A stretch of 51,540 nt of DNA from a virus. Of the stretch, positions 4,292 to 34,488 are shown one piece after another; the first letter of the stretch is position 1, and each line of letters begins with the position of its first letter. Below the pieces are notes generated by a model. That model saw only the letters and a list, made by a program, of their open reading frames with translations, was not told the origin of the DNA and did not search any database. The DNA lies in the IMG/VR virus record IMGVR_UViG_3300009405_000321, positions 1-51,540 of that record, one strand, 5' to 3'. A program made the position numbers and the translations under genes.

Positions 4292-4292
4292 A

Positions 4293-5263: not shown

Positions 5264-5292
5264 CTTGGATTATTAAAAAGGAGGTTGTAATC

Positions 5293-6720: not shown

Positions 6721-6788
6721 GAGATCCGATTGGATCGAAAATGATCGCTTAATAAAAACCAAATATCCTATTAAAAGGAGGAATAGTT

Positions 6789-7397: not shown

Positions 7398-7428
7398 TTG
7401 ATCCGCAGTTTGATCAGGATATAAATGC

Positions 7429-7465
7429 TTAAGCCGTCAGGGGAAATCAACCCCTGACGGCTTAA
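7429..7465 (+). promoter_or_regulatory. perfect 15-bp RNA hairpin abutting a ribosome binding site
   Basis: TTAAGCCGTCAGGGG (7429-7443) pairs perfectly with CCCCTGACGGCTTAA (7451-7465) around the 7-nt loop AAATCAA. AGGAGG begins immediately after the stem (7466) and the next gene starts at 7481. There is no U-tract on either strand, so it does not look like an intrinsic terminator; control of translation, mRNA processing or stability of the following gene pair is more likely. Confidence 0.85.
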
Positions 7466-7480
7466 AGGAGGAAATGCATT

Positions 7481-8083: not shown

Positions 8084-8100
8084 AAAGGAGGTGTTGTATC

Positions 8101-8697: not shown

Positions 8698-8736
8698 ATG
8701 ATCGGATAAATTAAACTGCCAAAAAGGAGGGTCAAA

Positions 8737-9189: not shown

Positions 9190-9206
9190 TCTTTGGAGAT
9201 CTTGAC

Positions 9207-9875: not shown

Positions 9876-9885
9876 GGCGGTTTAT

Positions 9886-10380: not shown

Positions 10381-10381
10381 T

Positions 10382-10858: not shown

Positions 10859-11499
10859 AGATAGGTCCAATAGCATTAAAGTTAAGGTTAGCCGAGACTC
10901 GCTTTGGGAATCTTGTCGGCGGGGCGGCCGAATTGGCATTTGCATTAAGAGGGACTTTGCAAAAGGAGATGGCCTTTGTCGTCCAATTGGCGGAGACTGT
11001 AAATCCAAATCAGTATGATAGTGGGATTAATCAAAAGATCAGCGAGCGATTTGGAGTTATTGTCGCTCTGGATAATGGGACGTCTGATCGGGACAAGACA
11101 GGATTGACCGCCTATGATTCTTTATTTGAGATTCGGGCGGAGTTGTTTAAAGCGTTACTCGGATGGCAGATCCCCGAAACAGAGGATCTTGTTTCTTATG
11201 GTGGGGGTCGTATCCTTGGAATTGATCGGGCGCGTTTTTGGTATCAATTTGAATTTGTGACCGGTACCAGGATCAACGATGAGGATGGTGTTGATTCTGG
11301 AGTGGAGGATCTTGTAGATTTTGATACCATATATGCTCAATGGGTTTTATCACCAAGCGCAAATTTGCCGGTGACCGGAGTGCCAGTCGAGGCATTTGAA
11401 TTGGACATGGAATCGATTGTTGACTTCACATCCAATCCCGATGTTGATGGCTCCTTTGGGTTCGGCTTTGGATTAGGATTCGATACATATAAACCTTGA
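10855..11499 (+). CDS. tail terminator-like protein (Mu gp37 type)
   Basis: A protein of 214 residues starting at an ATGA overlap. IALKLRLAETRFGNLVGGAAELAFAL followed by AFVVQLAE and a long conserved core resembles the tail terminator (gp37-like) proteins of Mu-like phages. The C-terminus is phenylalanine/glycine rich (GSFGFGFGLGF). Its place between the gp10-like protein and the DUF2635/sheath genes matches the Mu-type order. Confidence 0.78.
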   Translation: MKIGPIALKLRLAETRFGNLVGGAAELAFALRGTLQKEMAFVVQLAETVNPNQYDSGINQKISERFGVIVALDNGTSDRDKTGLTAYDSLFEIRAELFKALLGWQIPETEDLVSYGGGRILGIDRARFWYQFEFVTGTRINDEDGVDSGVEDLVDFDTIYAQWVLSPSANLPVTGVPVEAFELDMESIVDFTSNPDVDGSFGFGFGLGFDTYKP

Positions 11500-11517
11500 T
11501 AAAAAAGGAGAAAGGAT

Positions 11518-11727
11518 ATGAAGGGAGACACCGCATTTTTGGTACCGCTGAAAGGCCTTCTTATTCGTGATCCGATGTCGTATGAGCCTTTGCCCGCAAA
11601 GGGGATGCTAAAGCCGATGAGGGGAAAGGAAGGTCGATATTGGAGAAGGCGTATCAGAGATGGATCTGTCAGCGTCGGCAAACCCGCTAAATCCGCTAAG
11701 CGCGTGAGTGCGGAAAGAGCAAAATAA
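11518..11727 (+). CDS. DUF2635-like small basic protein (Mu gp38 position)
   Basis: A protein of 69 residues with AFLVPLKGLLIRDPMSYEPLPAKG...YWRRRIRDGSV, the pattern of DUF2635 proteins that lie just upstream of the Mu-type sheath gene. The C-terminus is lysine/arginine rich. AAAAAGGAGAAA ribosome site. Function unknown in the family. Confidence 0.8.
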   Translation: MKGDTAFLVPLKGLLIRDPMSYEPLPAKGMLKPMRGKEGRYWRRRIRDGSVSVGKPAKSAKRVSAERAK

Positions 11728-11748
11728 ACAGCAAAGGAGGAATGAGTT

Positions 11749-13266
11749 ATGGCAATTACATTTAACAATATTCCCACAACAGTGCGGACTCCTGGGGGGT
11801 ATGTCGAGATCGATAATTCCAGGGCTCTTCAGGGATTACTTCAAAATCCGCACAAGGTTCTGATTATTGGTCAGAAGCTGGTGACTGGCACTGCTCCGTA
11901 TGATACCCTCATGACGATTTCAAGGGATAATCTCGCAGACGGATTTTTTGGCACCGGTTCGCCATTGGCTCGGATGTGCAATGCTTTTAAGGAGAATAAT
12001 GCCAACACCGAGATGCACGCCATGTGCATCGGATCGGGGGTTGCTGGCAACGCGGCATCGGGCGAGCTTGATATTTCGGGGATGCTGGTCGCTGATGCGG
12101 TGTCTAATGATCACACTTGGTATTTGATGATCAATGGATATGAATTGCAGGTTCCTATTTATAGCAATGACTCCGGTCAGAAGATCGCAAGCAAATTGGT
12201 TTCCATGATTGAGAGCACATCCGCATTGCCTGTTGGTGCTACTCAAACAGCCGCCACCAGTTTGGGATTGGTCGGCGTCAGTGCTGTGATGTCTGGGACT
12301 CTGGGTAATTATATCAACATCCGCGAAAATTATTATGATTATCAGACAATTCCGAGTTGCTTTTCTGGATTGCCCTTGACATCTCATGGGGTCAGTCTAT
12401 TGACGGGTGGGACGACAGATCCGAGCCTCGATGATGTATGGGCGGTGATTGATAATGAGCAGTATCATTATATCATCCAGCCTTTCATTGATGCGGCTAA
12501 TCTGACATCACTCGAGGATGAACTGGATGATCGATTTTTACCTCTTGAGGATCTTCAGGGGCATGGATTTACATCCGTGCGGGGAACCCAAGCCAGTTGT
12601 ACGACCCTTGGTAATAGTCGGAATAATCAGCATAATACGATTCTCGGGGTTAATGATTCTCCAATCTGCCCTGAAGAGTGGGGGGCGGCTCTGGGCGCTG
12701 TTGCTTCATGGAATCTGAATATTGATCCGGCGAGACCCCTTCATTTTTTGGAGCTACAAGGGATATTGCCTCCGCCTGTCGATGGTAGATTCACCAGGGC
12801 CGAAAGGGACACCCTTTTGTATGATGGGATTGCGACATACATCGTGGACTCGGGGGGTAACACTCTGATTGAGCGATGCGTCACGACCTATCAAGAAAAT
12901 GCGCTTGGTATCCCTGATCCCAGTTATCTGGATGTCCAGACGCTTGCGACATTGAGCGAGATCCGGTTTCAATACAAGGCTCGGATGATAAGCCGATTTA
13001 TTATTCCCAGATTCAAATTGGCAGATGATACATTTCCGGTACAGCCCGGATCGAAAGTGGCGAGACCAAAAGATGTCAGGCAGGAAACCATTGCCCTTTT
13101 CTCCCTATTGAGAGACAAGGGATTGATCGAGAATCTTGAAGAGTTTATTGACAATCTGGTGGTTGAGAGAAATATCGCAGATCCAAATCGGGTGGACGTT
13201 CTGTTGCCGCCTGATCTGATTAATCAGTTCAGGATTCTGGCGGCACAGATCCAGTTCATTTTGTAA
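11749..13266 (+). CDS. contractile tail sheath protein (Mu gpL-like)
   Basis: A protein of 505 residues opening ITFNNIPTTVRTPGGYVEID, typical of Mu-like sheaths, with KVLIIGQKL and LLTGGTTDPSLDDVW-type beta blocks and a C-terminal VVERNIADPNRVDVLLPPDL handshake-like region. It defines the phage as having a contractile tail. Strong CAAAGGAGG site. Confidence 0.93.
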   Translation: MAITFNNIPTTVRTPGGYVEIDNSRALQGLLQNPHKVLIIGQKLVTGTAPYDTLMTISRDNLADGFFGTGSPLARMCNAFKENNANTEMHAMCIGSGVAGNAASGELDISGMLVADAVSNDHTWYLMINGYELQVPIYSNDSGQKIASKLVSMIESTSALPVGATQTAATSLGLVGVSAVMSGTLGNYINIRENYYDYQTIPSCFSGLPLTSHGVSLLTGGTTDPSLDDVWAVIDNEQYHYIIQPFIDAANLTSLEDELDDRFLPLEDLQGHGFTSVRGTQASCTTLGNSRNNQHNTILGVNDSPICPEEWGAALGAVASWNLNIDPARPLHFLELQGILPPPVDGRFTRAERDTLLYDGIATYIVDSGGNTLIERCVTTYQENALGIPDPSYLDVQTLATLSEIRFQYKARMISRFIIPRFKLADDTFPVQPGSKVARPKDVRQETIALFSLLRDKGLIENLEEFIDNLVVERNIADPNRVDVLLPPDLINQFRILAAQIQFIL

Positions 13267-13321
13267 TCGGAATCTGAATTTAAATAATTTATCAAAGACA
13301 GAATTCGGCAACTTATTAGGA

Positions 13322-13364
13322 GGCCCACTGTCCGCGAGGATCTTTCGCAGGCACTGGGTCTTTT
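13322..13364 (+). terminator. imperfect hairpin with U-run between sheath and tube genes
   Basis: GGCCCACTGTCCGCG (13322-13336) can pair with CGCAGGCACTGGGTC (13346-13360) with two mismatches and two G-U pairs, followed by TTTT (13361-13364). It lies in the 122-nt gap after the sheath stop and before the ribosome site of the tube gene. Read as RNA it is a weak intrinsic terminator or attenuator, which could set sheath/tube ratios; a processing hairpin is the alternative. Confidence 0.45.
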
Positions 13365-13388
13365 AATTGATAAAAGGAGGAATGCGTT

Positions 13389-13781
13389 ATGGCAAGGATT
13401 ACAGGAAGAGTTGAGGTTCTGGTAAATGGGGAGACCCTTTTAAACAAAGCCGGTGCTGTTGCCAGCGGCATCGGGATTTCAGGGGCTCCGAATTTTGAAT
13501 TGGAATCCGTAATGGGTGATACCGGTATTCATGGATACAAGGAGAATCCGATTGTCGCCAAATTGGAGGTCACCGTCACAGATCGGGATGATGTTTCCTT
13601 GAGCGATATCGCATCGATCAGGGAGAATGGAACTGTGATTTTTCGCTCGGCCGGAGGCGGTAAGGTTTACACCATGGAAGGCGCAACCTGCCTGCGGAAT
13701 TTTTCTGTGACGGGTGGAGAGGGGGAAACCCCCTTGGTCTTTGAAGGTCCTTATTGGACTGAGACCACCAGTGCATCTTAA
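13389..13781 (+). CDS. tail tube protein (Mu gpM-like)
   Basis: A protein of 130 residues beginning ITGRVEVLVNGETLLNKAGA with a compact all-beta pattern (NFELESVMGDTGIHGYKENP, VTVTDRDDVSL) and C-terminal EGPYWTE. This is the Mu-like tail tube family. It follows the sheath and precedes the frameshifted assembly chaperone, as expected. AAAAGGAGG site. Confidence 0.9.
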   Translation: MARITGRVEVLVNGETLLNKAGAVASGIGISGAPNFELESVMGDTGIHGYKENPIVAKLEVTVTDRDDVSLSDIASIRENGTVIFRSAGGGKVYTMEGATCLRNFSVTGGEGETPLVFEGPYWTETTSAS

Positions 13782-13805
13782 AATTAAGAAAGGGTATAAT
13801 TTCAA

Positions 13806-14120
13806 ATGAGAGATGAAAAAACGATGGATCAAATTGTAAAATTGGAACATTCAATCCCGATCCCCAAAGAAGGAGGCGGGACCGTCAATGTATCCGAATT
13901 GAGATTTGGTCGATTAAAAGCGAAGCATTTAAGATCGCTTCCCGAGAACTTTATGGAAAGGGGTGGCAATCTTGAGCCGCAGGATGTGATCCCATTGATT
14001 GCCAGTCTTGCTGACATTCCGGTGGATTCTGCCGATGAGATTGATATCGATGATCTGTTAAAAGTTGCCGCGAAGCTTGAATCTTTTTTCGGGGCATCCC
14101 TCAAGACTGGAAAGAAGTAG
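13806..14120 (+). CDS. tail assembly chaperone, short form (Mu gp41-like)
   Basis: A protein of 104 residues with LEHSIPIPKEGGGTVNVSELRFGRL and a helical C-terminal half, as in phage tail assembly chaperones that sit between tube and tape measure. The zero frame stops at TAG 14118-14120, after the slippery sequence. The next entry describes the longer product. Confidence 0.85.
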   Translation: MRDEKTMDQIVKLEHSIPIPKEGGGTVNVSELRFGRLKAKHLRSLPENFMERGGNLEPQDVIPLIASLADIPVDSADEIDIDDLLKVAAKLESFFGASLKTGKK

Positions 14121-21688: not shown

Positions 21689-22300
21689 ATGGCTGACACA
21701 CAAAGAACAAGAGCCCAGATACTTGCCTTGTTGGCAGATAATGTGACGGGGAATATTTCGGCTCAGGACGCAAGAGATGTTATCGTGACGATCATGGAAG
21801 ATCCCGAATTTTCTTATGCTGGGGACTTTTTCAATGGCCCGGTTGTTTTGGGGATCACGACCGACAAGACGACAAGGGGATTTCATCTTTACTCTCAGAC
21901 GATGCATAGTGATCATAGCGCATCTTTTGGGATGCCCCTCGCTTACAATCAGGTTTCGGGGAACTGGTGGCCTGCAGATCTTTCCAGATCAGAGGCAAAT
22001 CCGGCAAGGGGAATCCCTGCGGATAGCTATGCGTCAGGTGCGGTTGATGTCAAGATTCTGATTCAGGGCCTGATTTATGATAGTGGATTGTCCCGATTGA
22101 GCGGATTTATCGGCAAGCCGGTTTATCTGCAATCCGGTGCGCTTTCCACATCCGCCAGCATTGACGCCGAGGTCGGGACGAGCGATAGTCGCACCGGTGG
22201 GATCATAGGATATGTTGTCGGATCGGGTACGGTGACATATCCGTCGATTTATAAATGGCGCTTTGATGGAACTGCCGCTTGGGCAATCACCGGCGTATAA
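21689..22300 (+). CDS. putative tail fibre-module protein
   Basis: A protein of 203 residues not assigned to a named family. The N-terminus TRAQILALLADNVTGNISAQ, then DARDVIVTI is a common opening of phage tail and fibre proteins. The C-terminus (KPVYLQSGALS, GGIIGYVVGSG, KWRFDGTAAWAI) looks like a beta-rich virion domain. Placed between baseplate and collar-domain fibre; strong AAAGGAGG site. Confidence 0.72.
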   Translation: MADTQRTRAQILALLADNVTGNISAQDARDVIVTIMEDPEFSYAGDFFNGPVVLGITTDKTTRGFHLYSQTMHSDHSASFGMPLAYNQVSGNWWPADLSRSEANPARGIPADSYASGAVDVKILIQGLIYDSGLSRLSGFIGKPVYLQSGALSTSASIDAEVGTSDSRTGGIIGYVVGSGTVTYPSIYKWRFDGTAAWAITGV

Positions 22301-23026: not shown

Positions 23027-23569
23027 ATGAATATTTATGATTATGATCCAGATACAGGGGAATACCTTGGGTCACGGGTTGCACAATTAGACCCTTTGGT
23101 GACCAAGGAAAAAGGAGAAGCTGTTTTTCTTGTTCCGGCAAACGCTACCATCATAGCGCCTCCCTCTTTTAAAAAAAATCAGATGGCGGTGTTTGATGGA
23201 GAGTCCTGGGAGATAGTTCCTGACTTCAGAAAGTTTGAATGCTACGACCCTATTACTCAGGAAACAATTGAACTTGCATTAGGTGAGTCCCCTCCCGTTG
23301 GTTTTCCAACCACTCGCCCCGAGCCATATACTTTCAAGGTCGATGAGTGGGACAACAAAAATCAAAAATGGGTGGAAGGTCTGACTGATATTGAGTTGTG
23401 CCAGCTTAGTAGGCGAGAGATATATGATCCAAAAGGTGATCAATTGGACAACATCACCAAGGCTTTTAAATATATGAAGGCCAATGGTGTGGATATCGGG
23501 CCAGACGGTGATGCTCAGGTGGCTATGTCTGATAAGGTTAAATCTGATTTCCCATTGCCATCGAGTTAG
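23027..23569 (+). CDS. tail fibre assembly-like protein
   Basis: A protein of 180 residues beginning NIYDYDPDTGEYLGSRVAQLDPL and containing DWE-like VDEWDNKNQKWVEGLTDIEL, resembling tail fibre assembly chaperones that follow a fibre gene. Its TAG overlaps the stop codon of the oppositely oriented Maf-like gene, so the two transcription units meet here with no spacer. Confidence 0.75.
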   Translation: MNIYDYDPDTGEYLGSRVAQLDPLVTKEKGEAVFLVPANATIIAPPSFKKNQMAVFDGESWEIVPDFRKFECYDPITQETIELALGESPPVGFPTTRPEPYTFKVDEWDNKNQKWVEGLTDIELCQLSRREIYDPKGDQLDNITKAFKYMKANGVDIGPDGDAQVAMSDKVKSDFPLPSS

Positions 23570-26487
23570 CAATCTGAATGGGTAATATTTTTTAATGCGA
23601 CTTGAGAAGGCTCGTGATCAGGTTTGATCTCCCTCGCTTTTTTACGAGCTAAGTCAGCTTGACGGGGCTTTCCCGCCGCTTTTAGAGCAAGGCCATATCT
23701 AAGCCATGCGTCAAAGTCTGCGGGATACTTGTCGAGATATCCCTGATATGTGATACATGCCTCATCGGGCAAATTGCTTTGCATATAGATATCCCCGATC
23801 TTTGATAAGAAATGGTCGAACTCGTCGGTGATTGCCATGACCTCCCCGACAATTTTGAGTCCATCCTGGACATCCATGGTTTTGTTGATCAGCATCACTT
23901 GAGCCATTTCAAATTTGAATCTTAAGTTATCGGGATAATCGGCAACCAATTTTTTATAGACGGACACGGATTCATCCAGATATCTCGAATGATGCAAAGC
24001 CGATGCGAGCCCCCAGCATGCCTCCATATTGTCGGGGATCAATTTAACCGCTTTTCTCAATAGCGCCAGGGCCCCCTTAAAATCCTTTTCTTTTAATCCC
24101 AGTTCCCGACTCCGTTCAATCAGATCATTGCATTTGATCAATTTGACCATTTCATCATGATGTTTATCCTCGGACTCTTTGGCCTTTTCGATGTCCGTAT
24201 TTCTCATTTCAAGGGCTTTGATATGAATATCCCTGATCACCATACGTACGTCTTGATCAAGTGCATCGTAATTCGAATGGTGCATTTTCTTCTGCGCATC
24301 CAATAAAGGATGCGCCCAATTGCCCTTTTCAAAATAGTCCTCGGCATCGTCCAGATCCACCTTGTAATCATCGCCGATCACCAGTAGATCGTTATTTTTG
24401 GTCTCGTCATACTCTTTGAGTAAATCAAGGGTTTTATTATAGGATTTGTGCAATGATTCGGAGGCTTCCTGCGCGGCGTTGAGGATTAGGTTATTTCGAT
24501 TCATTCTGATCATCGCTGTTTCAAAATCCTTTAAAAATGCTTTAATCGTCTGATCGGCTTTAAGATCCCGATCATATATCGCCCGACTCGCCCCATATAT
24601 AGCAACATTGACAAGGGGGTTTTGAATCGATTGCTGATGCGCTATTTCAGAGTGATGAAAGTTTTTGACGGATAAGACGATGATGTGTCGGACAGGGGAT
24701 TTTTTGGGGAGCGCCTTTAAAAGCTTGTCGTAAAATGAATAATTGAGAGCCGTTGTATTAGCGCTACTATCCTCTCTGGCCTCGGCAAGACATCGATCAA
24801 AAAGCCTTTCTCTTTTCTTGGGAAGGAGCTTTTTATATTTGGATCGGGACATCAAGGTCTTCATTCCATGATTGACCGCTTTTGCGATCCGGCAATTTTT
24901 GATTATCACATCGAGTCGATCAATATCATCCTGTAAAAGCGGGATCACCTTTGAGATCAACTCATCGCCATCTTCGGCCATGGTCAATAACGATTTAAGA
25001 TGGTTCTTATCAATCGGATCTTGACAATATTTTTTGATCACCTGCTTGAGCGACATCAATTTGGTTCCCTTGATCCGAGCCCCGCCTTCTGTCGCATTTA
25101 TAATGAGATTACCCTTGATCGATTGATGCCGTTCCACCATGCTTTCAAAGACGGTTAAAAAGGACGCCAGTCCCATATTGGTTGTCACTTCCCCGCCATA
25201 ATATCCGGGGATATTATGAGCGTAACCCATGGTGACCATTTCATCGCTATGCAATCGGCATCTTTGATCATTGACCTTCCACAGGATTTGCCCATTTTCT
25301 CCGACAAGGATTTCTCCCATTGCATCTGCCTGCGCTATATGGGAGGTCGCGCCGAGAGATAGATCTTGACCGACAAATGTGATCGGATTGCATCCGAGTA
25401 ATTGAGCAACTCCTAAACATAAATGAGCGACAGACCCTCCCGCTTCGATATGCCCCTTGTCGGTCAAGATCCCCGTTGCCATGTGCTCAAATCCTGGCAC
25501 CGGAGTTGCTGCAATAAATTTTGGTCCCTGCCAAGCCTTGAGCAAGGGGGCATATGCCCGATTGATTGTGATCAATGGAACATCGCTATCCATGAGCCCT
25601 TCAAAATGCCCCATATTGATGTCTCCGAAGTCCACGGTACATATGAAGTCAGGGCGGATGTCATATGCCAGTAAAACGCGCAATGCTTGGCCGACAGCGA
25701 CGATTATGACCCGATCTTTGAGGTCGATAAGATGGTGAATGTTTTTTGCGAGCGATGGGCCGGTGCTGACAAGGATCGCCGGTTTGCCCTTAAAGATATT
25801 TGTCAGCTCAGCGACTCCCCGATGCCGGATGACATAGGGTAGGCAAGCGATATCATTGTCTGCGATTATGGCTCCGGCATCCCCAGCCACTGTTCCCGTA
25901 TTACATAGGATCTGATTCAGGACTTCGGATGTCAATGTTATTATATTGGCATACTCCTCCCGCCGAAATTGTGTATATTTATTGATGGTCAAATGCCAAT
26001 CGGATATAACTCGAGCCCCGCTTAATGTTTGTAGTGCTCCGATGATCGTATCATTATCCGCCGGGACCATCATCAATCGACCATCTGCTATATATTTTGA
26101 GAAATCAAATTGATGAAAGGCGAGCCTGATCATATGGGCGACCGGTTCGATGACTAATAATCGATGCCCCTTTTCCATGCTCTTGAGCAGAGATTCCGTC
26201 AGATATCCCAACCCCATGCCGACAAGGATGCTGATACTTTCCTTATACAATTTTTTCATCTTCTTTAGATCCTTGACATAAGCATTTGCCAGCTTACCAG
26301 GATCATCCATATCGTAGACCGGATTGATCTCCCCTCCGGATTTGACCAAAAGATTGTTTCCTTTGCGGCTTTTGATCGGCTGTATCCATTTTACATCTGG
26401 CGCTTTCTCAATCCATTTAACATGCGGCTTATTTATGGATCGAAGGGCTTTCATATTTTTGTTAAAGATCTTACTTGATTTTGACAT
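23566..26487 (-). CDS. DUF115/Maf-type glycosyltransferase with C-terminal TPRs
   Basis: Probably transfers a CMP-activated nonulosonic sugar to a protein. Residues about 235-290 hold the DUF115 core (PAILVSTGPSLAKN, VIIVAVGQALRVLLAYDIRP, DFICTVDFGD) known from motility-associated factor (Maf) flagellin glycosyltransferases. Residues about 60-215 fit the Maf N-terminal part, and residues about 780-970 are TPR-like (LALLRKAVKLIPDNMEACWG, DESVSVYKKLVADYPDN). Length 973 is longer than usual Maf (about 600-700). It is the last gene of the sugar operon, starting inside the previous small gene. The acceptor is unknown; host flagellin or a phage surface protein are the obvious options. Confidence 0.85.
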   Translation of the reverse strand: MSKSSKIFNKNMKALRSINKPHVKWIEKAPDVKWIQPIKSRKGNNLLVKSGGEINPVYDMDDPGKLANAYVKDLKKMKKLYKESISILVGMGLGYLTESLLKSMEKGHRLLVIEPVAHMIRLAFHQFDFSKYIADGRLMMVPADNDTIIGALQTLSGARVISDWHLTINKYTQFRREEYANIITLTSEVLNQILCNTGTVAGDAGAIIADNDIACLPYVIRHRGVAELTNIFKGKPAILVSTGPSLAKNIHHLIDLKDRVIIVAVGQALRVLLAYDIRPDFICTVDFGDINMGHFEGLMDSDVPLITINRAYAPLLKAWQGPKFIAATPVPGFEHMATGILTDKGHIEAGGSVAHLCLGVAQLLGCNPITFVGQDLSLGATSHIAQADAMGEILVGENGQILWKVNDQRCRLHSDEMVTMGYAHNIPGYYGGEVTTNMGLASFLTVFESMVERHQSIKGNLIINATEGGARIKGTKLMSLKQVIKKYCQDPIDKNHLKSLLTMAEDGDELISKVIPLLQDDIDRLDVIIKNCRIAKAVNHGMKTLMSRSKYKKLLPKKRERLFDRCLAEAREDSSANTTALNYSFYDKLLKALPKKSPVRHIIVLSVKNFHHSEIAHQQSIQNPLVNVAIYGASRAIYDRDLKADQTIKAFLKDFETAMIRMNRNNLILNAAQEASESLHKSYNKTLDLLKEYDETKNNDLLVIGDDYKVDLDDAEDYFEKGNWAHPLLDAQKKMHHSNYDALDQDVRMVIRDIHIKALEMRNTDIEKAKESEDKHHDEMVKLIKCNDLIERSRELGLKEKDFKGALALLRKAVKLIPDNMEACWGLASALHHSRYLDESVSVYKKLVADYPDNLRFKFEMAQVMLINKTMDVQDGLKIVGEVMAITDEFDHFLSKIGDIYMQSNLPDEACITYQGYLDKYPADFDAWLRYGLALKAAGKPRQADLARKKAREIKPDHEPSQVALKNITHSDC

Positions 26488-26641
26488 TATGTTTCTCCCG
26501 ATGCCTTTTGATTTGAGATCCCTTATATAGCACGATCACGGTTTCTTTATTCTGCTTGATATCTTTATTCTGCTTGATAATCGGGAGCCCTGATATTTTC
26601 TTTCCTCCGATCTCGCAGGAGCAAGTTTTATCCTTTGTCAT
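26471..26641 (-). CDS. 56-residue protein between acetyltransferase-side genes and Maf gene
   Basis: An ATG-started frame of 56 residues (MTKDKTCSCEIGGKKISGLP onward, ending HNVKIK) overlaps the preceding small gene by 14 bases and the Maf gene by 17, exactly the pattern of its neighbours, which argues that it is real. It is lysine-rich, has a CSC motif and contains a duplicated IKQNKD/IKQNKE. Function not recognised. Confidence 0.55.
   Translation of the reverse strand: MTKDKTCSCEIGGKKISGLPIIKQNKDIKQNKETVIVLYKGSQIKRHREKHNVKIK
26544..26579 (+). repeat. perfect 18-bp tandem duplication
   Basis: TCTTTATTCTGCTTGATA occurs twice back to back (26544-26561 and 26562-26579). In the minus-strand small gene it duplicates six codons (IKQNKD, IKQNKE) without breaking the frame, which suggests replication slippage in a translated gene. 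Confidence 0.9.
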
Positions 26642-26816
26642 CGATCATCTCCTTACATAATTTAGTTATTGCCTGATCGCATTCTACAATATCCGCCATG
26701 ATCCCCTTTGCTCTGTCTGGGGCAATCTCAAAAGCCAGCTCAAGGAGCCGCATCCAGTTTTTATTATTGCGGGATCTGATATCGGATATCTCTTTTAAGA
26801 TCTTACCGTGGTTCAC
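26628..26816 (-). CDS. 62-residue helical protein of the sugar operon
   Basis: Starts with GTG at 26816 (AAGGAT ribosome site, 14-base overlap with the acetyltransferase) and encodes NHGKILKEISDIRSRNNKNW, then MRLLELAFEIAPDRAKGIM and DQAITKLCKEM. Small all-helical proteins with a NNxxWMxLLxLA core are, as I recall, found in nonulosonic-acid biosynthesis loci, but I could not verify this and know no function. Confidence 0.7.
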   Translation of the reverse strand: MNHGKILKEISDIRSRNNKNWMRLLELAFEIAPDRAKGIMADIVECDQAITKLCKEMIDDKG

Positions 26817-27426
26817 GCATTATCCTTTTTAAAACTCCCTCCCATTCAAAATCGAGGATTCCATATGCGACGACATCTTCATATTTACCATTGAGAAAAG
26901 TACCATTTCTAAATCGGCCCTCCTCGATCATCCCGAGCTTTCTGGCGATGCCTTTCATCCCCTCATTGGTATCGGCTGTCCCCGTCCAGATCCGATGCAG
27001 ATTTAATTTTTTGAATCCATGATCGTAGATCAATGCCGCCGCCTCGGTTCCATATCCCTTACCCCAGTATTCTTTTTCTCCGAATACGCAGGCAAACTCG
27101 GCGCTCCTATTGATCCAATTGATTGACTGCAGGGTTACATTGCCGATATGGATATCTCCCATTCCATCGCGGCAATAGCCGGTCTGGCAATCATCTTTCT
27201 TGAGGAGAGAATCCCTCGGGATCATCACCGCCCACACAATATTTGGTCCCGATTCCAATTGCTCAAAGAATTGCTTCATGGCTGTTTTTGTATAGGGAAA
27301 GAGCCCATGCGAGTTGTGCTTGGTCACTTCCTGATCATGAAACCATGATCGATAATTGCCGGCAAGATCTTGCTCATTTAAAGGACGGACATAAAATCGG
27401 TCTGTTTGGTACATTCGATCAACCAT
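26803..27426 (-). CDS. GNAT-family N-acetyltransferase (PseH/LegH-like role)
   Basis: A protein of 207 residues of the RimJ/RimL type: FYVRPLNEQDLAGNYRSWFH, GNVTLQSINWINRSAEFACV, YWGKGYGTEAAALIYDHGF (acetyl-CoA loop, GxGxxTEA-like) and LNLHRIWTGT. In this context it would acetylate the 4-amino group of the sugar made by the dehydratase and aminotransferase. The ATG at 27426 has a good AAAGGAG site and overlaps the dehydratase stop. Substrate is inferred from neighbours. Confidence 0.85.
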   Translation of the reverse strand: MVDRMYQTDRFYVRPLNEQDLAGNYRSWFHDQEVTKHNSHGLFPYTKTAMKQFFEQLESGPNIVWAVMIPRDSLLKKDDCQTGYCRDGMGDIHIGNVTLQSINWINRSAEFACVFGEKEYWGKGYGTEAAALIYDHGFKKLNLHRIWTGTADTNEGMKGIARKLGMIEEGRFRNGTFLNGKYEDVVAYGILDFEWEGVLKRIMREPR

Positions 27427-28369
27427 CGATCATCTCCTTTATCTTTTGGGGTGATATTTGCCAAGCGGTGGTATCGCTCCGATACTCATGAAATTTATAT
27501 GGGGTATCTGGATGGATGATATATCCGCTTATTTCGGGATTAAAGGCGCAGGTCTCCGCCTCCTCTTTTGTGATCAAGATCTCATGGATCTTTTCTCCAG
27601 GACGGATTCCGATATCGACGACTTCCGCATCTGGGGTTACCGCATTGATAATATCGATGATGCCGGCGCTTGGCATTTTTGGGATAAAGAGTTCCCCGCC
27701 AATCATTCGATCGATTGCCCCGATGATAAAATTTGCGACGGTCGGGAGAGTGATCCAGAATCTTGTCATCCGCTTATCCGTGACGGTAACCTTTCCCGTC
27801 TTTTGATATTGCTCCTTGAATAAGGGGACGACCGATCCTCGGCTCCCCAAAACATTTCCATATCTACAGCAGGAGAAGAGCGGGGATCTTCCGCCCGAGT
27901 AGACATTGCCCTGGATGAATAATTTCTCGGCGCATAATTTGGTCGCCCCGTAGAGATTGATCGGATAAACCGCTTTGTCTGTGGATATGGCCATGACCTT
28001 TTTGATATCATTTTCAAGGGCGGCATATAAGACATTTTGCGCCCCGATCACATTGGTCTGGATTGCTTCAAGGGGATTATCCTCGCAGGCTGGCACCTGT
28101 TTTAATGCCGCCGCATGGATGATTATATCGACCCCTTTGGTCGCCAACTCGACTCTTTTGCGATCCCTGATATCCCCGACAAGAAATGATACGGGTGCCC
28201 GATCATCGATTTCCTTTTTCATTTCCCATTGCTTCAGCTCGTCCCTTGAGAATATCCTGATCCCTTTGGGAACCCAATTATGAGAAGCGGCGAGAAATGT
28301 ATTGGTCAGCGTCCTTCCCAAAGATCCGGTGCCGCCCGTGATCAAGATCTCTTTATTCGCCCAGTTCAT
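27419..28369 (-). CDS. PseB-like UDP-GlcNAc 4,6-dehydratase
   Basis: A protein of 316 residues of the extended SDR family. The NAD(P)-binding TGGTGSLG lies at about residues 11-18, and the active-site region reads STDKAVYPINLYGATK (YxxxK, about 128-143), as in inverting and retaining UDP-GlcNAc 4,6-dehydratases (PseB, LegB, FlaA1). It would make the 4-keto-6-deoxy sugar that starts pseudaminic- or legionaminic-type pathways. The sequence does not let me tell C5-inverting from retaining. Strong AAAAAGGAGGG site; starts inside the preceding small gene. Confidence 0.9.
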   Translation of the reverse strand: MNWANKEILITGGTGSLGRTLTNTFLAASHNWVPKGIRIFSRDELKQWEMKKEIDDRAPVSFLVGDIRDRKRVELATKGVDIIIHAAALKQVPACEDNPLEAIQTNVIGAQNVLYAALENDIKKVMAISTDKAVYPINLYGATKLCAEKLFIQGNVYSGGRSPLFSCCRYGNVLGSRGSVVPLFKEQYQKTGKVTVTDKRMTRFWITLPTVANFIIGAIDRMIGGELFIPKMPSAGIIDIINAVTPDAEVVDIGIRPGEKIHEILITKEEAETCAFNPEISGYIIHPDTPYKFHEYRSDTTAWQISPQKIKEMIDG

Positions 28370-28553
28370 TTACCCTCCTTTTTAGATATACCGTGGTCGA
28401 TTGATATCCGCCCTCGGGGCAATGGATATGATGTTCTTTCATACTTATGACTTCCCATCCATCCGCCCCCAGCTCATTCAATTTTTCGATGAGCCCATGC
28501 GATATGCTTTCTCGTTTATATTGCCATTCTACCGAGCACATCAGGCGCTCCAT
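28353..28553 (-). CDS. DUF4177-like small protein
   Basis: A protein of 66 residues: WQYKRE...LIEKLNELGADGWEVISMKE...TTVYLKRR. The LNELGxDGWEVIS core with a C-terminal KRR is the DUF4177 pattern. Overlaps the sialidase-like gene by 13 bases and the dehydratase by 17. It is commonly found as a stand-alone small domain of unknown function. Confidence 0.78.
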   Translation of the reverse strand: MERLMCSVEWQYKRESISHGLIEKLNELGADGWEVISMKEHHIHCPEGGYQSTTVYLKRRVNELGE

Positions 28554-29644
28554 TTAGTGATTGCGATTTGGGTAACCCTATCCTTCGGGGTGACATAATA
28601 AGCCGTCAGGATCGAATCATCTTTCAATTGGATTGAAACCGGATATCCGATATCATTGCCAGGGCAGATATTAATCTTGCGATGCCAAGGACGCGCCTTT
28701 TTATGGAGCGAACTGAGATAGCCGCCGTCATCCCTTAGTATCCGAGGGATTCCCCATGTCCGGCCCCCGTCCTTTGATGTCATCGCCCGAATTCCCATCT
28801 TCTTGAATCGATATCCGAATGAGCATAATAATCGCCCATCCGTCAGCTCTAATAAGTGGGAAGGGCCCCCGATCACATTTCGGATTTCATTTATATAGAC
28901 CTGATTCTTTTTTTCTATATCCGCATCAATATAGCTTATCTGGGCTTCCGTTGGATAAGACCAAGTCAATCCCTGATCATCCGACCATGACTCCATCAAT
29001 GCCGGATGATTATCGGAGCGGATATGCGCAAGGATGGCATCGTCATGACCCCTTGCAAATGCCATCTCATTTCCATCGATGCTATCCGGAAACATATTCC
29101 ATAATTTAAAGTTATCCCCGCCGTCAGCAGATCGCCAGACAAAGCACCGGCTAAAATCATATTCCTTCAGGATCGCATATGCTGGGATCAAGATCAAAGA
29201 TCCCGATTGAAAGATCCTGGGAAAGGTCACAATGATATCGACATCGGGGAGGGTATATATCCGATGATAAAACGATTTCCAATCGTTTTTTGAGAGCCTT
29301 TGAAATAGTGACCGGCTCTTTCTCATCTTCATCTTTTTGCTTTTATGGGGAGCGGCCATGAATCCAAAAGATCCGGTCATCAAATCGACATCATTTATAG
29401 AGGCCGTAAATCTGTCGGATACTTCTCTTGAGGATAGGCAGGGCCAATCGGAGTGATCATAGTCCTGATAGTTTTCCCATGACTCCCCGTCATCGCGGGA
29501 TATCATTTCCGCCCAAGAATATAAACCGCAATGATCAGGGACGGGAGCGACAAAAAATCCGATTATGATATCATCGCCCTTTTGTCGCAATAATGGAAAA
29601 CTGGCATATGTATCGGGTCGATGAAATATGGTTTTATGCTTCAT
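28541..29644 (-). CDS. sialidase-like BNR/Asp-box beta-propeller protein
   Basis: A protein of 367 residues with four Asp-box repeats (SxDxGxxW type): SRDDGESW 49-56, SADGGDNF 172-179, SDDQGLTW 221-228 and SKDGGRTW 290-297, spaced as in six-bladed sialidases. No signal peptide, so it acts inside the cell or in the virion. In a nonulosonic-acid operon it could remove or trim the sugar. Catalytic residues (Arg triad, Tyr, Asp) were not assigned. Starts 11 bases before the synthase stop. Confidence 0.82.
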   Translation of the reverse strand: MKHKTIFHRPDTYASFPLLRQKGDDIIIGFFVAPVPDHCGLYSWAEMISRDDGESWENYQDYDHSDWPCLSSREVSDRFTASINDVDLMTGSFGFMAAPHKSKKMKMRKSRSLFQRLSKNDWKSFYHRIYTLPDVDIIVTFPRIFQSGSLILIPAYAILKEYDFSRCFVWRSADGGDNFKLWNMFPDSIDGNEMAFARGHDDAILAHIRSDNHPALMESWSDDQGLTWSYPTEAQISYIDADIEKKNQVYINEIRNVIGGPSHLLELTDGRLLCSFGYRFKKMGIRAMTSKDGGRTWGIPRILRDDGGYLSSLHKKARPWHRKINICPGNDIGYPVSIQLKDDSILTAYYVTPKDRVTQIAITKWSA

Positions 29645-30494
29645 TTAATAATTCCCTTCTAAACTCCTGCATCGGACGCAATCCATCGCAGGGGGAGGTT
29701 CTCCATTTTTTGGCTTCGATTTCATTGGTCTCATCGGATGATATTGCCGCCATACCGATCCCGACATCATGGATCACCGGAGCGATCTGACTGGGTTTCC
29801 AGCAATGCCCGATTTTGGATTCAAATCCCTCGCCGTCCTCAAGATCAAAATGGAATTCAATATATCGGGCGCCAATCTCAATCGCCTTGTGGATCACCCC
29901 AGGCTCAACGGTATGATCGCTCCATCCAGTGCCGGGCCATCCTTCGATTGAGTTTGAAAATATCATCGCCAGATCTTTCATGGCTTTTAAATTGCAGTCC
30001 TCGACGCGCGCCGGATAATTTGAATTGCAATGGAAGACGCATTTGGGCAAGTTCTCTGATCTGACATAAATCTCATTCATCATAGTATGGAGCGCATCAT
30101 GATCAAGCATCCCCGCAGATAGCATCCATGGTAAGCCGGTATCAATCATCTTGTGGATAAGTGGCGTCCACAAGGTCTCATATGATCCGATCTTTAAATA
30201 GTCCACATATGGAGTCAGAATATCGACGGCTTTTAGATCAAAGGGGGTGCACCCGAATTTGAGTGATAGACCATGGGTGGTGTCCCTGATATTAGACAAA
30301 AAATGCTCGGGCAATTCGCATTTTTTAAATGCTTCGATGTTAGCCTTAAACTCCGGCGCATATAATTGATTAGCCCTAAACAATTGAAATTTGACTCCCC
30401 AGCATCCGACCCTTTTAGCGGCTTCGATGAGTCGCATCGTACGGGTATGGGATTGATTGTGATTCGATCCTATCTCGGCAATGAATCTGATCAT
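29634..30494 (-). CDS. NeuB/PseI/LegI-like nonulosonic acid synthase
   Basis: A protein of 286 residues with AEIGSNHNQS near the N-terminus, GVKFQLF, LKFGCTPFDLKAVDIL, DYLKIGSYE and LSAGM, GWSDHT and YIEFHFDL, the TIM-barrel signature of sialic acid synthase family enzymes that condense phosphoenolpyruvate with a six-carbon amino sugar. It lacks the C-terminal SAF (antifreeze-like) domain of full-length NeuB/PseI (about 340-350 residues), which is unusual. GGAGGG ribosome site; ATGA-type overlap with the previous gene. Confidence 0.9.
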   Translation of the reverse strand: MIRFIAEIGSNHNQSHTRTMRLIEAAKRVGCWGVKFQLFRANQLYAPEFKANIEAFKKCELPEHFLSNIRDTTHGLSLKFGCTPFDLKAVDILTPYVDYLKIGSYETLWTPLIHKMIDTGLPWMLSAGMLDHDALHTMMNEIYVRSENLPKCVFHCNSNYPARVEDCNLKAMKDLAMIFSNSIEGWPGTGWSDHTVEPGVIHKAIEIGARYIEFHFDLEDGEGFESKIGHCWKPSQIAPVIHDVGIGMAAISSDETNEIEAKKWRTSPCDGLRPMQEFRRELLNEA

Positions 30495-30700
30495 GATATT
30501 ACCCTCCCTTTAATATGAGGTCTGATATTAAATTTAAAGCGCCTGATTATCTTTTTAGCAATATGATCGGGGACAAGATATCCTCCGTCTTGCCATCCAT
30601 CCCACATTAGTCGTCTTGGCTTTTTGATGATCAGGATCTTTGGAATCATAAAAGCCAACGGCGCCCAAGTGATAAATTTTATAAAGCCCCGTCGATTCAT
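30491..30700 (-). CDS. 69-residue protein with Tat-like N-terminus
   Basis: Begins MNRRGFIKFITWAPLAFMIP, a twin-arginine motif (RRGFIK) followed by a hydrophobic stretch, then a basic tail with DGWQDGGYLVPDHI. Both ends overlap neighbours by four bases (ATGA), strong support for a real gene. Short phage proteins with Tat-like starts occur elsewhere, but their role is unclear. Its presence suggests a membrane-linked step in the sugar pathway. Confidence 0.72.
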   Translation of the reverse strand: MNRRGFIKFITWAPLAFMIPKILIIKKPRRLMWDGWQDGGYLVPDHIAKKIIRRFKFNIRPHIKGRVIS

Positions 30701-32070
30701 ATCAGCTCTTTTCGATTCTCCCAGACTTTTTCAAATGCCTTGGCTACATCCATGCAATCTTCAGGGGTGGAGTTTGGCGCATGATATAAGGTCAAAAATA
30801 ATTTGTTTTCCCAGAGATCTTCGCACACCGGACATGATCCCTTTTGATAATTATTGTATTCGCCCTTGATCTTTTTCGGGGACATATTAAAAGGGTACTC
30901 TCCGCATCCCTCATATAATTTCCGATTCTGAAAGATCGGAAATAAATAGACCGGCTTGATATATCCGCATCCGATCTGGACATCCTCAGACTCCCGATGG
31001 ATGCGGGGCGGCAATTCCGCCTTGACCGCATTGATAAAATCATTGCGATGAAGACCATCTGCCTGATCCTGATCCCATTGAAAAGAGCAGACATAATATG
31101 AATGAGTGCAATTTGGCCTTGTCGGAGAAAAGGTGATCGGTGGGATCTCACCCAGATAATGACTCAATGGCTGGACATTGTTTTTTCGATCATGGAGCAG
31201 ATCATCAAATTTCTTTAGTTGCTCGCTGACGATGACGGCTTGCAACTCTGTCATCCGCATATTGAATCCGAGCATATTATATCGGGGAGGGATAATCAAT
31301 CCGCCATCGGCATGTTTATTATATATCATATCATTGATGACGGCCTCGGCATGATTCATGATCAATCGGCATCGCAGGGCGAGATCATCATTATCTGTGA
31401 CGATCATTCCTCCCTCTCCGCAGGTGATGTGCTTCCCATAATTAAATGAGTAGACTCCGATGTCCCCGAGTGTCCCTGCGGCAAGGGTCTCATTTCTGTC
31501 GGGGGTATCCTTGCCGTATAAATGAGAGCCGATAGCTTGAGCGGCATCCTCGATCACCATGAGCCCATGCTTTTTAGCGATCTTATTGATCTCCCATGAA
31601 TAGGGCTGACCAAAGATGCTGACGGCGATAATCGCTTTTGTTTCAGGGGTGATCTTTTCCTCAATCGATTTTGGATCAAGGCAATAATAGTCCGGCTCGA
31701 TATCCGCAAAGATCGGAATCGCATCCCAGACTAAAGGCGCTGTGGCCGAGCAGGTCATGGAGTAGGGAGTCACAATCACTTCATCATATGGGCCAAGGCC
31801 GATTGCTCCGCAGGCGATCTGCAATCCGCTCGTTGCAGAGTTGCAGGGGATCGCATGCTTGACATTAAATTTTTCCTGCCATTGTTTCTCAAGCGCTTGG
31901 ATAGCCGGACCTCCCCAGAATTCTTTTCCCCAGTTGGCTCGATATCCTGACAGGCGTCCGCCATTCATGATATCCATCACCGCCTTGATCTCTTTTTCAT
32001 CAATTGTATTCTGTGATGGGAAGAATTCTGTCCTTATTGGATCTCCCCCGTGGATCGCTAATTTACTCAT
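30697..32070 (-). CDS. DegT/DnrJ/EryC1/StrS-family sugar aminotransferase
   Basis: A PLP enzyme of 457 residues: CNSATSGLQIACGAIGLGPY, DEVIVTPYSMTCSA, VIEDAAQAIGS, and SFNYGKHITCGEGG carrying the PLP lysine. It would add an amino group at C4 of the 4-keto sugar. The opening KLAIHGGDPIR and closing SCPVCEDLW...LYHAP resemble the longer StsC-like subgroup rather than the about 380-residue PseC, so exact substrate is open. AAAAGGAAAA site; a terminator lies just upstream. Confidence 0.88.
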   Translation of the reverse strand: MSKLAIHGGDPIRTEFFPSQNTIDEKEIKAVMDIMNGGRLSGYRANWGKEFWGGPAIQALEKQWQEKFNVKHAIPCNSATSGLQIACGAIGLGPYDEVIVTPYSMTCSATAPLVWDAIPIFADIEPDYYCLDPKSIEEKITPETKAIIAVSIFGQPYSWEINKIAKKHGLMVIEDAAQAIGSHLYGKDTPDRNETLAAGTLGDIGVYSFNYGKHITCGEGGMIVTDNDDLALRCRLIMNHAEAVINDMIYNKHADGGLIIPPRYNMLGFNMRMTELQAVIVSEQLKKFDDLLHDRKNNVQPLSHYLGEIPPITFSPTRPNCTHSYYVCSFQWDQDQADGLHRNDFINAVKAELPPRIHRESEDVQIGCGYIKPVYLFPIFQNRKLYEGCGEYPFNMSPKKIKGEYNNYQKGSCPVCEDLWENKLFLTLYHAPNSTPEDCMDVAKAFEKVWENRKELI

Positions 32071-32088
32071 TTATTTTTCCTTTTATTT

Positions 32089-32143
32089 AAAAAATGGATG
32101 GGCGGTTTTTAGCTCCGATAATTGTATTCCAAACCGCCCATCC
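32089..32143 (-). terminator. strong intrinsic terminator before the aminotransferase gene
   Basis: On the minus strand GGATGGGCGGTTT (32143-32131) and AAACCGCCCATCC (32108-32096) form a perfect 13-bp stem with a 22-nt loop, followed by six U (complement of 32089-32094). It would end transcripts coming from the oxidoreductase. The aminotransferase starts 19 bases further on, so either it has its own promoter or this is a regulated attenuator. Confidence 0.75.
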
Positions 32144-32261
32144 CTTTCATGGAGGTACATCCCCGGATCTTCAATCCATTTTACGTCCCGAAAAGATCAG
32201 GGACCGACTCGGAACACATCGGCGATGAGTAAAATCGGGACAACCCGTACGGGAAATCTGA

Positions 32262-33245
32262 TTAACTCTCGTCCAATATTTTATGAATCTTAATCGCATC
32301 TTCCGCCGTGCAGATCAAGGATTCTTGATCATCGAGAAAATTGACCGCATTGGATATCAGATTATACATTGCCAGATTTAATTGAGTCTCTGTTCGGATC
32401 ACACTGGTCAATTTATAATCCAGGGATTTATGTCCCCACTCATTTGCTTCGTTGATCGGATACCGCTCCAGAAAAAGACCATTATCGATAAATCGAAATC
32501 GGCCCTCCTCGGCAGTGATATCAATTTCAAAGATCCCATATGCCCGACCGTCGCAGGGCTGGAAGATAACTGACGAACATTTTTCAAATGAAGAGACGAC
32601 TTCAAGGGTCATATCCTCTTCGTTCCGATCTGCAAATCCCAAGCCACACCCGACATTCCAATCAAGACACTTTCCAAAAAACCAATTCATCAAATCGATG
32701 GCATGGCATCCCTCATGCTTTAGCCCCCGAGTATAGAGCACCCTGGCATTAAAGATCTTGCCGAGCGCATCCTTGTCCAGTAAAACTTTAAACTCATTAT
32801 ATCCTCGGGTATATCGCCTGGGATAATTGACCATGATCGGAATTTTATATCTGCCGGCTAATTCAACCATGGTATTCGCCTGTATGAGATTTCCCCCGAA
32901 TGGTTTTTCGACAATTATTAATCTGGGATGAATGTTACCTGAAAAAATGTTTCCGATAATATTAATATGCTGATTCGTAGGGACGGCAATGATGATAATT
33001 TCCGGTCGCTCGGGATCTATCTCGTGCATTTGACCAAGGGATGTGAAAGCCCTTTTGGCCTGCCACTTGGTTTTTGCTTTGACCAATTGATCCTTGTCGG
33101 GATCGATGACAGCAAATAATTCTGTCTTGATATGCCTATCTACGGCATTGGCATGGGTCAGGATGTTTTCAGATCCGGGGCCGTCAATCTCATCCGGTTT
33201 TAATGCCCCGATTGATCCGCATCCTACGATTGCTACTTTGTACAT
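32262..33245 (-). CDS. Gfo/Idh/MocA-family oxidoreductase
   Basis: A protein of 327 residues: N-terminal Rossmann motif VAIVGCGSIGALKP, IIIIAVPTNQHI, and VEKPFGGN (the EKP signature of the family), then an alpha/beta C-terminal domain. Uses NAD(P) to oxidise or reduce a sugar. Similar enzymes are found in nonulosonic-acid and other surface-sugar loci, sometimes paired with a SpsF-type transferase, as here. Excellent AAAGGAGG site. Exact reaction unknown. Confidence 0.87.
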   Translation of the reverse strand: MYKVAIVGCGSIGALKPDEIDGPGSENILTHANAVDRHIKTELFAVIDPDKDQLVKAKTKWQAKRAFTSLGQMHEIDPERPEIIIIAVPTNQHINIIGNIFSGNIHPRLIIVEKPFGGNLIQANTMVELAGRYKIPIMVNYPRRYTRGYNEFKVLLDKDALGKIFNARVLYTRGLKHEGCHAIDLMNWFFGKCLDWNVGCGLGFADRNEEDMTLEVVSSFEKCSSVIFQPCDGRAYGIFEIDITAEEGRFRFIDNGLFLERYPINEANEWGHKSLDYKLTSVIRTETQLNLAMYNLISNAVNFLDDQESLICTAEDAIKIHKILDES

Positions 33246-33388
33246 TTTTTATCCTCCTTTATTTAAATTTGGTATTGCGGACGGGTGATATGATCGCCCT
33301 CTGGTGGGGTGACCCAGTGGCTTATCTATCATCCCTGATCCAAATGAAGGGATTTATCGATCATTTGGAATTTCCCCGCCCGCAAACT

Positions 33389-34159
33389 TTATCCTTCCTC
33401 CGGCGTCTTGCGCCTTACATCTTTATTGGTTATTAACTCTGGATTCTCTTTTAATAATTTGACTACATCCTCGACCCGAAATAATGGATCATCGCCGAAC
33501 TCCATGAATAAGGCCTTTAGCATATAATAGTCTTCCTGCGTATCAAGCGTCAACCCCAGCTCCGGCCAATGCATCTCTGATGGAGCTGACCAATTCCCTG
33601 CAATAAAAACATCTGGATATTGAGCGATATTCCAACCACAATGTTGCTTTGGATTATATAATTTTTTGCATTTTTTCAATATTTCAGTTGGATAGACTTG
33701 AATATCTAATCCGTCGGGCCAGGATCTTTTTATAATATCATTTGAAACATAATCCCATTTTTGAGAATCTAAATAATTTATTAAATAATCAATATGTCTC
33801 GGATCTACCATCGGGCAATCGGCAGTAATATCGACAATGATATCTGCCCCGATCCCTTCGGCCGCGGCGAGTACTCTGCCGATCACATCGTCTTCATCCC
33901 CATGATATTGAAAGCATGATGGCTGATTGATATATAGCCCGATCCTATCCACGACATGGCAAAATTGGAATATCGGAGCATTTGCCGGATGAGATGTTGT
34001 AGCAATCACGACCTGATCCACTAATTCTGCTGAGATGACTCTTTTAACCATCCACCACAAGACAGGCATCTCGGCGAGGGGTAATAATACTTTTGCCGGC
34101 AATCTTCCTGATCTCATTCTTGCCTGAATCACCGCTACGACTTTAGATTTTGATTTCAT
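33389..34159 (-). CDS. SpsF/acylneuraminate-type cytidylyltransferase
   Basis: A protein of 256 residues: VVAVIQARMRSGRLPAKVLL (nucleotide-binding start), VDQVVIATTSHPAN, GDEDDVIGRVLAAAE, DITADCPMVDP and a C-terminal NLTLD-like GLTLDTQEDY. It belongs to the SpsF/CMP-sugar synthetase family and would activate the sugar as CMP-nonulosonate. I use ATG 34159; a TTG six bases upstream is possible. Its start overlaps the end of an HNH-endonuclease remnant, so it may have been joined to the upstream gene before that insertion. Confidence 0.87.
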   Translation of the reverse strand: MKSKSKVVAVIQARMRSGRLPAKVLLPLAEMPVLWWMVKRVISAELVDQVVIATTSHPANAPIFQFCHVVDRIGLYINQPSCFQYHGDEDDVIGRVLAAAEGIGADIIVDITADCPMVDPRHIDYLINYLDSQKWDYVSNDIIKRSWPDGLDIQVYPTEILKKCKKLYNPKQHCGWNIAQYPDVFIAGNWSAPSEMHWPELGLTLDTQEDYYMLKALFMEFGDDPLFRVEDVVKLLKENPELITNKDVRRKTPEEG

Positions 34160-34488
34160 TTTCAATCCAGTGTTTATTATTGACGATATTAAATATTTGA
34201 GGTTGGCTTATATTAAATTTGTAGCCCAGCGCCTTTTGTGAGATTAGCCCCGTTTTATACTCTTTTCTTATTTGCCGAATCTGATCCCTTGTTAATTTGG
34301 CCCCTCCGTTCCGTGCTCCTCGATTTATAGTTCCATGAGCTACTTTTCTTTTTTCATTATCAATATGAGATTCCCATATTAAATTTGATAGTCGATCATT
34401 TCGATTGTCACCATCCAAATGAGAAGCTTCCATGCCTTCTGGACATGATCCGATAAAAGCTTCTAAAACTAATCGGGATGGATTTTTA
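34143..34488 (-). pseudogene. truncated HNH homing-endonuclease-like gene
   Basis: The frame is open from directly after the SbcC C-half stop and reads PSRLVLEAFIGSCPEGMEAS, then HLDGDNRNDRLSNLIW, GTINRGARNGGAKL and a C-terminal HTH (QKALGYKFNISQPQIFNI). These are the second half of an HNH endonuclease with its DNA-binding tail. The N-terminal NUMOD4/HNH first half is missing; the first ATG (34433) comes after the motif has begun. Probably an inactive remnant or a DNA-binding leftover. Confidence 0.8.

Follow-up and report, generated by a model that had tools for sequence, protein, structure and literature searches.

A probable nonulosonic acid-type synthesis and Maf-like transfer cassette in a lineage of uncultivated myoviruses

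Nonulosonic acids are surface sugars of cells, and to our knowledge the involvement of phages with them (e.g. epaAB) is limited to the tailoring of a sugar made by the host. Here we analyse a sugar and glycosylation operon on the minus strand (34165 to 23566) of the IMG/VR record IMGVR_UViG_3300009405_000321, the entire 51,540 bases of which are called the window and belong to an uncultivated tailed phage, a myovirus. The initial annotation had proposed a phage-borne operon for the synthesis and Maf-type transfer of a nonulosonic acid, and this was borne out, for such an acid or a similar sugar, by family and fold matches and by the same block of genes in relatives. The recurrence of the cassette in an IMG/VR lineage is new here. 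On balance we lean towards the view that this core cassette glycosylates a protein, likeliest a virion protein, with a nonulosonic-acid-like sugar. Compared with the initial annotation, the case for conservation is stronger and those for completeness of the pathway and for the target are weaker.

Bacterial flagellin glycosylation islands (pseB-C-H-G-I-F or leg/ptm with maf/pseD) likewise cluster genes for a PseB-like dehydratase, an aminotransferase, a GNAT acetyltransferase, a NeuB-type synthase, a cytidine monophosphate (CMP) transferase and Maf. In contrast to these islands, the phage cassette has no PseG, an aminotransferase of a MocA-linked clade, an extra MocA gene, a NeuB without the SAF domain, a long TPR tail on Maf and no flagellar genes, and it is carried by a phage. 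We know of no mycobacteriophage with virion glycosylation that carries a nonulosonic acid pathway or a Maf enzyme. Glycans on phage virion proteins are themselves described for mycobacteriophages, at least as Freeman 2023 is cited in PMC12691614. The legionaminic acid (Leg) pathway of Bacillus subtilis (SpsM, C, D, G, E, F; PMC7439481) has in common with the cassette a PseB-superfamily dehydratase acting on uridine diphosphate N-acetylglucosamine (UDP-GlcNAc), a GNAT, NeuB/SpsE and an SpsF-type enzyme, whereas SpsG has no phage counterpart, the target is the spore coat and sps lacks a Maf. The epaA-epaB prophage genes of Acinetobacter baumannii (PMC12053666) are likewise phage-borne nonulosonic acid enzymes, yet the phage is temperate and the two genes modify host-made capsular pseudaminic acid (Pse), with no synthase, CMP-transferase or protein transferase. 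Caulobacter FlmG (PMC7591256) combines TPR and glycosyltransferase domains for nonulosonic acid transfer as the phage Maf does, but with a GT-B fold, another domain order and flagellin acceptors.

The cassette proved foreign to catalogued phages: tblastn of Maf, MocA and BNR against INPHARED (50,697 records) gave no match, that of NeuB only three matches with 25-28% identity, and a nucleotide search of INPHARED found nothing. No report of a phage synthesis-and-transfer cassette was found in the open-access literature, a scope outside which most subscription journals and preprints lie; phage O-acetyltransferases are the subject of PMC6586298 according to its title.

Conservation of the cassette in the virus lineage

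The cassette is a core module of the sampled virus lineage and no stray moron, since its genes occur in all 25 contigs selected by a tail gene and are conserved in the 26 contigs that span it. Relatives were collected by IMG/VR scans with NeuB, MocA, Maf and BNR alignments, and the totals combine hidden Markov model matches based on open reading frames (ORFs) with tblastn, because a few genes had escaped a simple ORF caller. The cassette was found in about four dozen distinct, divergent contigs, mostly in one order. SpsF, MocA, the aminotransferase, the NeuB-type synthase, GNAT and Maf are present in every contig spanning MocA to Maf (26/26) and PseB in 24 of them, and the order SpsF-MocA-aminotransferase-NeuB-PseB-GNAT-Maf is kept in about 21, with insertions between cassette genes in some relatives. 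Dozens of related contigs thus share one block in a mostly constant order rather than a random set of independent genes, the outcome that the initial annotation had set against its own proposal.

To avoid circularity, a tail gene that had not been selected by the cassette (window 21689-22300) was used as query, yielding 25 contigs that include baseplate context and reach 8.9 kb or further past it. Maf lies within 10 kb in 22 of these contigs, and two more carry Maf and the aminotransferase elsewhere (Maf in 24/25); the remaining contig, a 31-kb fragment, carries SpsF and MocA, which brings cassette genes to 25/25, a figure that linkage may inflate as the tail gene is near the cassette. Three candidates for cassette-free relatives (L219, L236 and L234) were rejected since Maf and the aminotransferase were located elsewhere in those records. 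A capsid-based core test found only short contigs beyond the phage itself. An integrase was detected in 1 of 18 records, which together with the tail-gene result speaks against a moron for lysogenic conversion by a prophage. The contig of the sole member with an integrase (L013/L046, 57,741 bases) has also been binned with a Desulforudis metagenome-assembled genome (MAG), a possible lead to the host.

A near-universal synthesis-and-transfer module would mean that these phages depend on protein glycosylation of their own making. Nonulosonate virion glycosylation thereby becomes directly testable, and minimal NeuB enzymes become available along with a Maf whose acceptors may include proteins other than flagellin.

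Predicted enzymes of the cassette

An ORF scan with Pfam and NCBIfam profiles placed all enzymes named by the initial annotation (PseB-like, aminotransferase, GNAT, NeuB-type, SpsF-type, oxidoreductase and Maf with TPRs) close to where it had put them. The NeuB-type label was right, for a protein of 286 amino acids (aa) without a SAF domain: its TIM-barrel domain scores 139 bits against PF03102 (cut-off 22.1), the Pfam match stops at residue 241 with no SAF family listed, and the metal-site histidines of the GWSDH and ExH motifs are invariant across 12 aligned sequences. The same SAF-less form is seen in the solved 290-aa chain 6ncs, and the SAF-less clade (support 100) joins 25 viral rows with 13 from cellular genomes, among them Desulfuromonas/Pelobacter flagellar loci, SAR11, Krumholzibacteria and others (one of the 13, L033, is probably a phage fragment); these cellular relatives rule out a loss of the SAF domain specific to phages. 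Three forms fill the NeuB role among cassette contigs: the SAF-less one, a minimal form of ~215 aa that replaces it in at least five contigs, and a full-length SAF type in two. Because the gene is replaced while the role is retained, the synthase step appears to be needed and the function, not one particular gene, to be selected. Three of the minimal proteins were tested and match Pfam NeuB with E-values down to 1e-11; they are possibly the smallest NeuB forms. Such ~215-aa proteins lie in or near the NeuB slot at L131:12231-12887, L119:8923-9567, L144:13803-14456 and L157:6523-7161.

Among the sugar-preparing enzymes, the PseB-like dehydratase scores 380.9 bits with TIGR03589 (cut-off 407.75), by far its best family, and its nearest solved structure is the UDP-GlcNAc C6 dehydratase 2gn4 (E 1.3e-86). 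The aminotransferase stays below the PseC cut-off (182 bits against 423.5), and the viral aminotransferases are monophyletic (support 99), with MocA-linked cellular aminotransferases as sister group, outside the PseC clade whose members adjoin PseB in cells. The sister sequences are those of L053, a Thermoplasmatales archaeon, and L109, a MAG of the Flavobacteriaceae. In both loci MocA adjoins the related aminotransferase, and a second, PseB-linked aminotransferase of L053 falls in the other clade. The L053 locus (3250-10975) is a nonulosonic one with two aminotransferases, MocA, PseG-like, SAF-type NeuB and amidotransferase-like genes. Near PDB matches of the phage aminotransferase include scyllo-inosose aminotransferases and KdnA (5k8b), an enzyme that aminates an octulosonate. 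MocA is probably a sugar dehydrogenase working with the aminotransferase, and the pair may convert a hydroxyl to an amine on the sugar or on an ulosonic acid. The GNAT protein scores 22.8 bits with the PseH profile (cut-off 93.1), which leaves membership of the GNAT family only. Extra sugar genes in relatives suggest that the product probably varies: L006:5361-6729 encodes a weakly xylose-isomerase-like TIM barrel and a second CMP-transferase, L144 and L157 have a second SpsF, and possibly related TIM-barrel-like proteins occur among L144, L152 and L157.

The MptE-like domain of Maf scores 143 bits with PF01973 (cut-off 34.6). In Foldseek, the AlphaFold2 model of the protein (pLDDT 83) has the Magnetospirillum Maf 5mu5 as top PDB match (E 1.3e-15), and TPR proteins including OGT are matched by the C-terminal part; the model thus speaks for a Maf transferase whose tail binds proteins. 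The TPR domain of FlmG binds flagellins and selects the acceptor (PMC7591256). Maf enzymes do their glycosylation in the cytoplasm, ahead of export (PMC4065374), so an enzyme of this kind from a phage could act on virion proteins prior to their assembly. In nearly all contigs reaching that far, Maf adjoins the tail fibre genes in convergent orientation. In five relatives (L004, L005, L006, L007 and L018) an N-terminal glycosyltransferase ORF of ~460 aa is split off in the Maf slot, with a separate C-terminal ORF where the locus reaches far enough and other ORFs between the two in some, which suggests two separable domains.

Between NeuB and PseB the window carries a BNR gene, found in the same slot in five relatives besides another contig of the same phage (L002); of the 26 spanning contigs, 5 have a BNR gene. 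The AlphaFold2 model of its product, of moderate confidence (pLDDT 62.6), matches many sialidases in Foldseek with E-values of 1e-9 to 1e-10, including the Pseudomonas aeruginosa pseudaminidase 2w38, in keeping with the six-bladed fold of GH33-like sialidases. Of the catalytic set of such enzymes (arginine triad, Asp, Glu and Tyr), D37, E193, R209, R279 and Y334 appear invariant in an alignment of six sequences read by eye, and all six have a serine (Ser15) in place of the first arginine of the RIP-type site, which makes catalytic activity uncertain. This sialidase-fold protein, restricted to the sub-group of the window, probably handles the same sugar or one of the host surface; that it prevents self-binding or strips host sugar is speculation.

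Proposed function and rival explanations

Of the two roles suggested by the initial annotation, a changed host surface (masking of a flagellar receptor) and decoration of the virion, the second is our first choice because of the core conservation, the single integrase, the lack of flagellin genes in the 18 phage records and the position beside the tail fibre genes; with an integrase so rare, the benefit must mostly fall within one lytic cycle. In the order of steps that we infer, the PseB-like dehydratase, the MocA/aminotransferase pair and GNAT would provide an acetylated amino-deoxy sugar for the NeuB-type enzyme to condense with phosphoenolpyruvate, and SpsF would activate the nonulosonic-acid-like product with CMP, the UDP-removing step presumably coming from the host or from an unrecognised enzyme. 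The Maf-like transferase would then move the sugar onto Ser/Thr of a protein in the cytoplasm of the infected cell, its TPR tail probably selecting the acceptor, which most likely would be a virion protein of the tail or a fibre. A bolder version, which we regard as less likely than not, is that the members of an entire lytic myophage lineage produce their nonulosonic sugar themselves, along a non-canonical path (MocA/aminotransferase, a SAF-less or 215-aa NeuB and no PseG), and coat their virions with it through Maf-TPR, some of them having a sialidase-fold partner; such an arrangement of synthesis plus cleavage would recall the animal viruses that exploit sialic acid.

Several observations weigh against virion decoration with a self-made sugar. 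Matches to the UDP-sugar hydrolase PseG came from 5 of 14 control genomes and from 0 of 18 phage records, most of them incomplete; those to the hydrolysing 2-epimerase NeuC/LegG (PF02350, Epimerase_2) came from 11 of 14 controls and 0 of 19 records. Along with an aminotransferase outside the PseC clade, these absences from the records searched led us to reject a canonical complete Pse or Leg route; the path from UDP-GlcNAc to CMP-sugar that had looked complete to the initial annotation could therefore not be upheld as such, the GNAT lying far below the PseH cut-off as well. As PseB is missing from 2 of the 26 spanning contigs, the starting sugar may vary, and both the sugar and the acceptor are ones that we infer. 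Finally, the closest cellular Maf seen (L089) lies beside fliS- and flaG-like genes, as read from the sequence, and several cellular SAF-less NeuBs (L038-L041) are in flagellar loci, which favours flagellin as the ancestral target.

The neighbourhood of L089 is also why modification of flagellin is ranked second: the cassette might modify the flagellin or another surface protein of the host, leading to loss of the receptor (superinfection exclusion) or altered motility. Homologues of Maf are flagellin glycosyltransferases, and the closest cellular SAF-less NeuBs, from Desulfuromonas/Pelobacter, have flgK, flgL and Maf genes as neighbours. We consider this explanation doubtful nevertheless, since the cassette is core in a lineage almost without integrases and with no flagellin gene of its own, and modifying a filament late in the lytic cycle would gain the phage little. 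The L089 locus (8499-13964) is a flagellar one of the Desulfobacterales, in which a 961-aa Maf accompanies NeuB and a BNR-like ORF.

An unlikely alternative is that the enzymes complete or alter a host pathway, turning a nonulosonic precursor of the host (e.g. after host PseG) into a variant sugar for capsule or lipopolysaccharide, with Maf incidental. It would account for the lack of PseG and of a PseC-clade aminotransferase in the records searched; cellular loci for nonulosonic or surface sugars (L053, L109) do contain MocA-aminotransferase pairs, and the prophage epaAB conversion of Pse to 8ePse is a precedent (PMC12053666). Nevertheless no spanning contig lacks Maf, whose fold is that of a protein glycosyltransferase, and neither Wzx/Wzy nor a membrane transferase was found in the window's cassette. 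A chance collection of independent auxiliary genes, or host DNA mis-binned as virus, is suggested by nothing beyond the insertions seen in some relatives and is highly improbable, ruled out in effect by an order largely kept at 30-65% protein identity, by the monophyly of the viral aminotransferases and by the structural and replication genes that border the cassette, in dozens of contigs as in the window.

Gene layout and minor features

The plus strand of the window (1-23.5 kb) carries the myovirus structural set of portal, prohead protease, major head protein, sheath and tape measure, together with baseplate hub and wedge, collar fibre and fibre assembly protein genes. From 51.5 kb downwards, the minus strand encodes DNA polymerase, clamp loader, UvsY, a RecA/UvsX-like protein, exonuclease, a metallophosphoesterase and an SMC-like ATPase, and the cassette forms the end of this block, head-on with the tail fibre genes. 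Protein copies with 100% identity occur in a 64-kb contig and in contigs from further metagenomes, therefore the window phage is no assembly accident. Promoter and terminator scans gave results at chance level only.

Table 1. Genes of the cassette in operon order, with window coordinates and supporting matches.
Gene product	Position	Strand	Evidence
SpsF-type cytidylyltransferase, 258 aa, CTP_transf_3	33389..34165	-	Pfam PF02348 E 4.8e-19, over cut-off; homologue in 26/26 spanning relatives
Gfo/Idh/MocA oxidoreductase, 327 aa	32262..33245	-	PF01408 E 2.9e-11; in 26/26 spanning relatives
DegT/DnrJ-type pyridoxal phosphate aminotransferase, 457 aa	30697..32070	-	PF01041 E 5.4e-74
69-aa ORF	30491..30700	-	ORF scan; 4-base overlap with each neighbour
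NeuB-type nonulosonic acid synthase, 286 aa, TIM barrel without SAF domain	29634..30494	-	PF03102 E 2.1e-40
BNR propeller protein, sialidase fold, 367 aa	28541..29644	-	PF13088 E 7.3e-11
66-aa DUF4177/Sp36-like ORF	28353..28553	-	NCBIfam Sp36_fam E 1.5e-6 (below cut-off); Pfam DUF4177 E 0.00096
PseB/CapD-like UDP-GlcNAc 4,6-dehydratase, 316 aa	27419..28369	-	TIGR03589 PseB E 3.9e-114
GNAT acetyltransferase, 207 aa	26803..27426	-	PF13302 E 3.5e-23
62-aa ORF	26628..26816	-	tblastn matches, 31-56% identity, in slot between GNAT and Maf
Maf/MptE-like glycosyltransferase with C-terminal TPR domain, 973 aa	23566..26487	-	PF01973 E 8.4e-42; TPR families

The overlaps of 4-17 bases that the initial annotation ascribed to every gene from the aminotransferase on hold as far as the 62-aa ORF (in order 4, 4, 11, 13, 17, 8 and 14 bases), and the run ends there, 140 bases (26488-26627) before Maf; further gaps separate SpsF from MocA (143 bases) and MocA from the aminotransferase (191 bases). 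Its gene list was correct for the genes it named and left out the BNR gene and the 66-aa, 69-aa and 62-aa ORFs of the overlap chain. The 69-aa product begins with MNRRGFIKF, resembling a Tat signal, and among the relatives searched no relative of it was seen outside the same phage (L002). The 62-aa protein is kept beside Maf in most relatives and stands before SpsF in some; it is a possible small partner of Maf.

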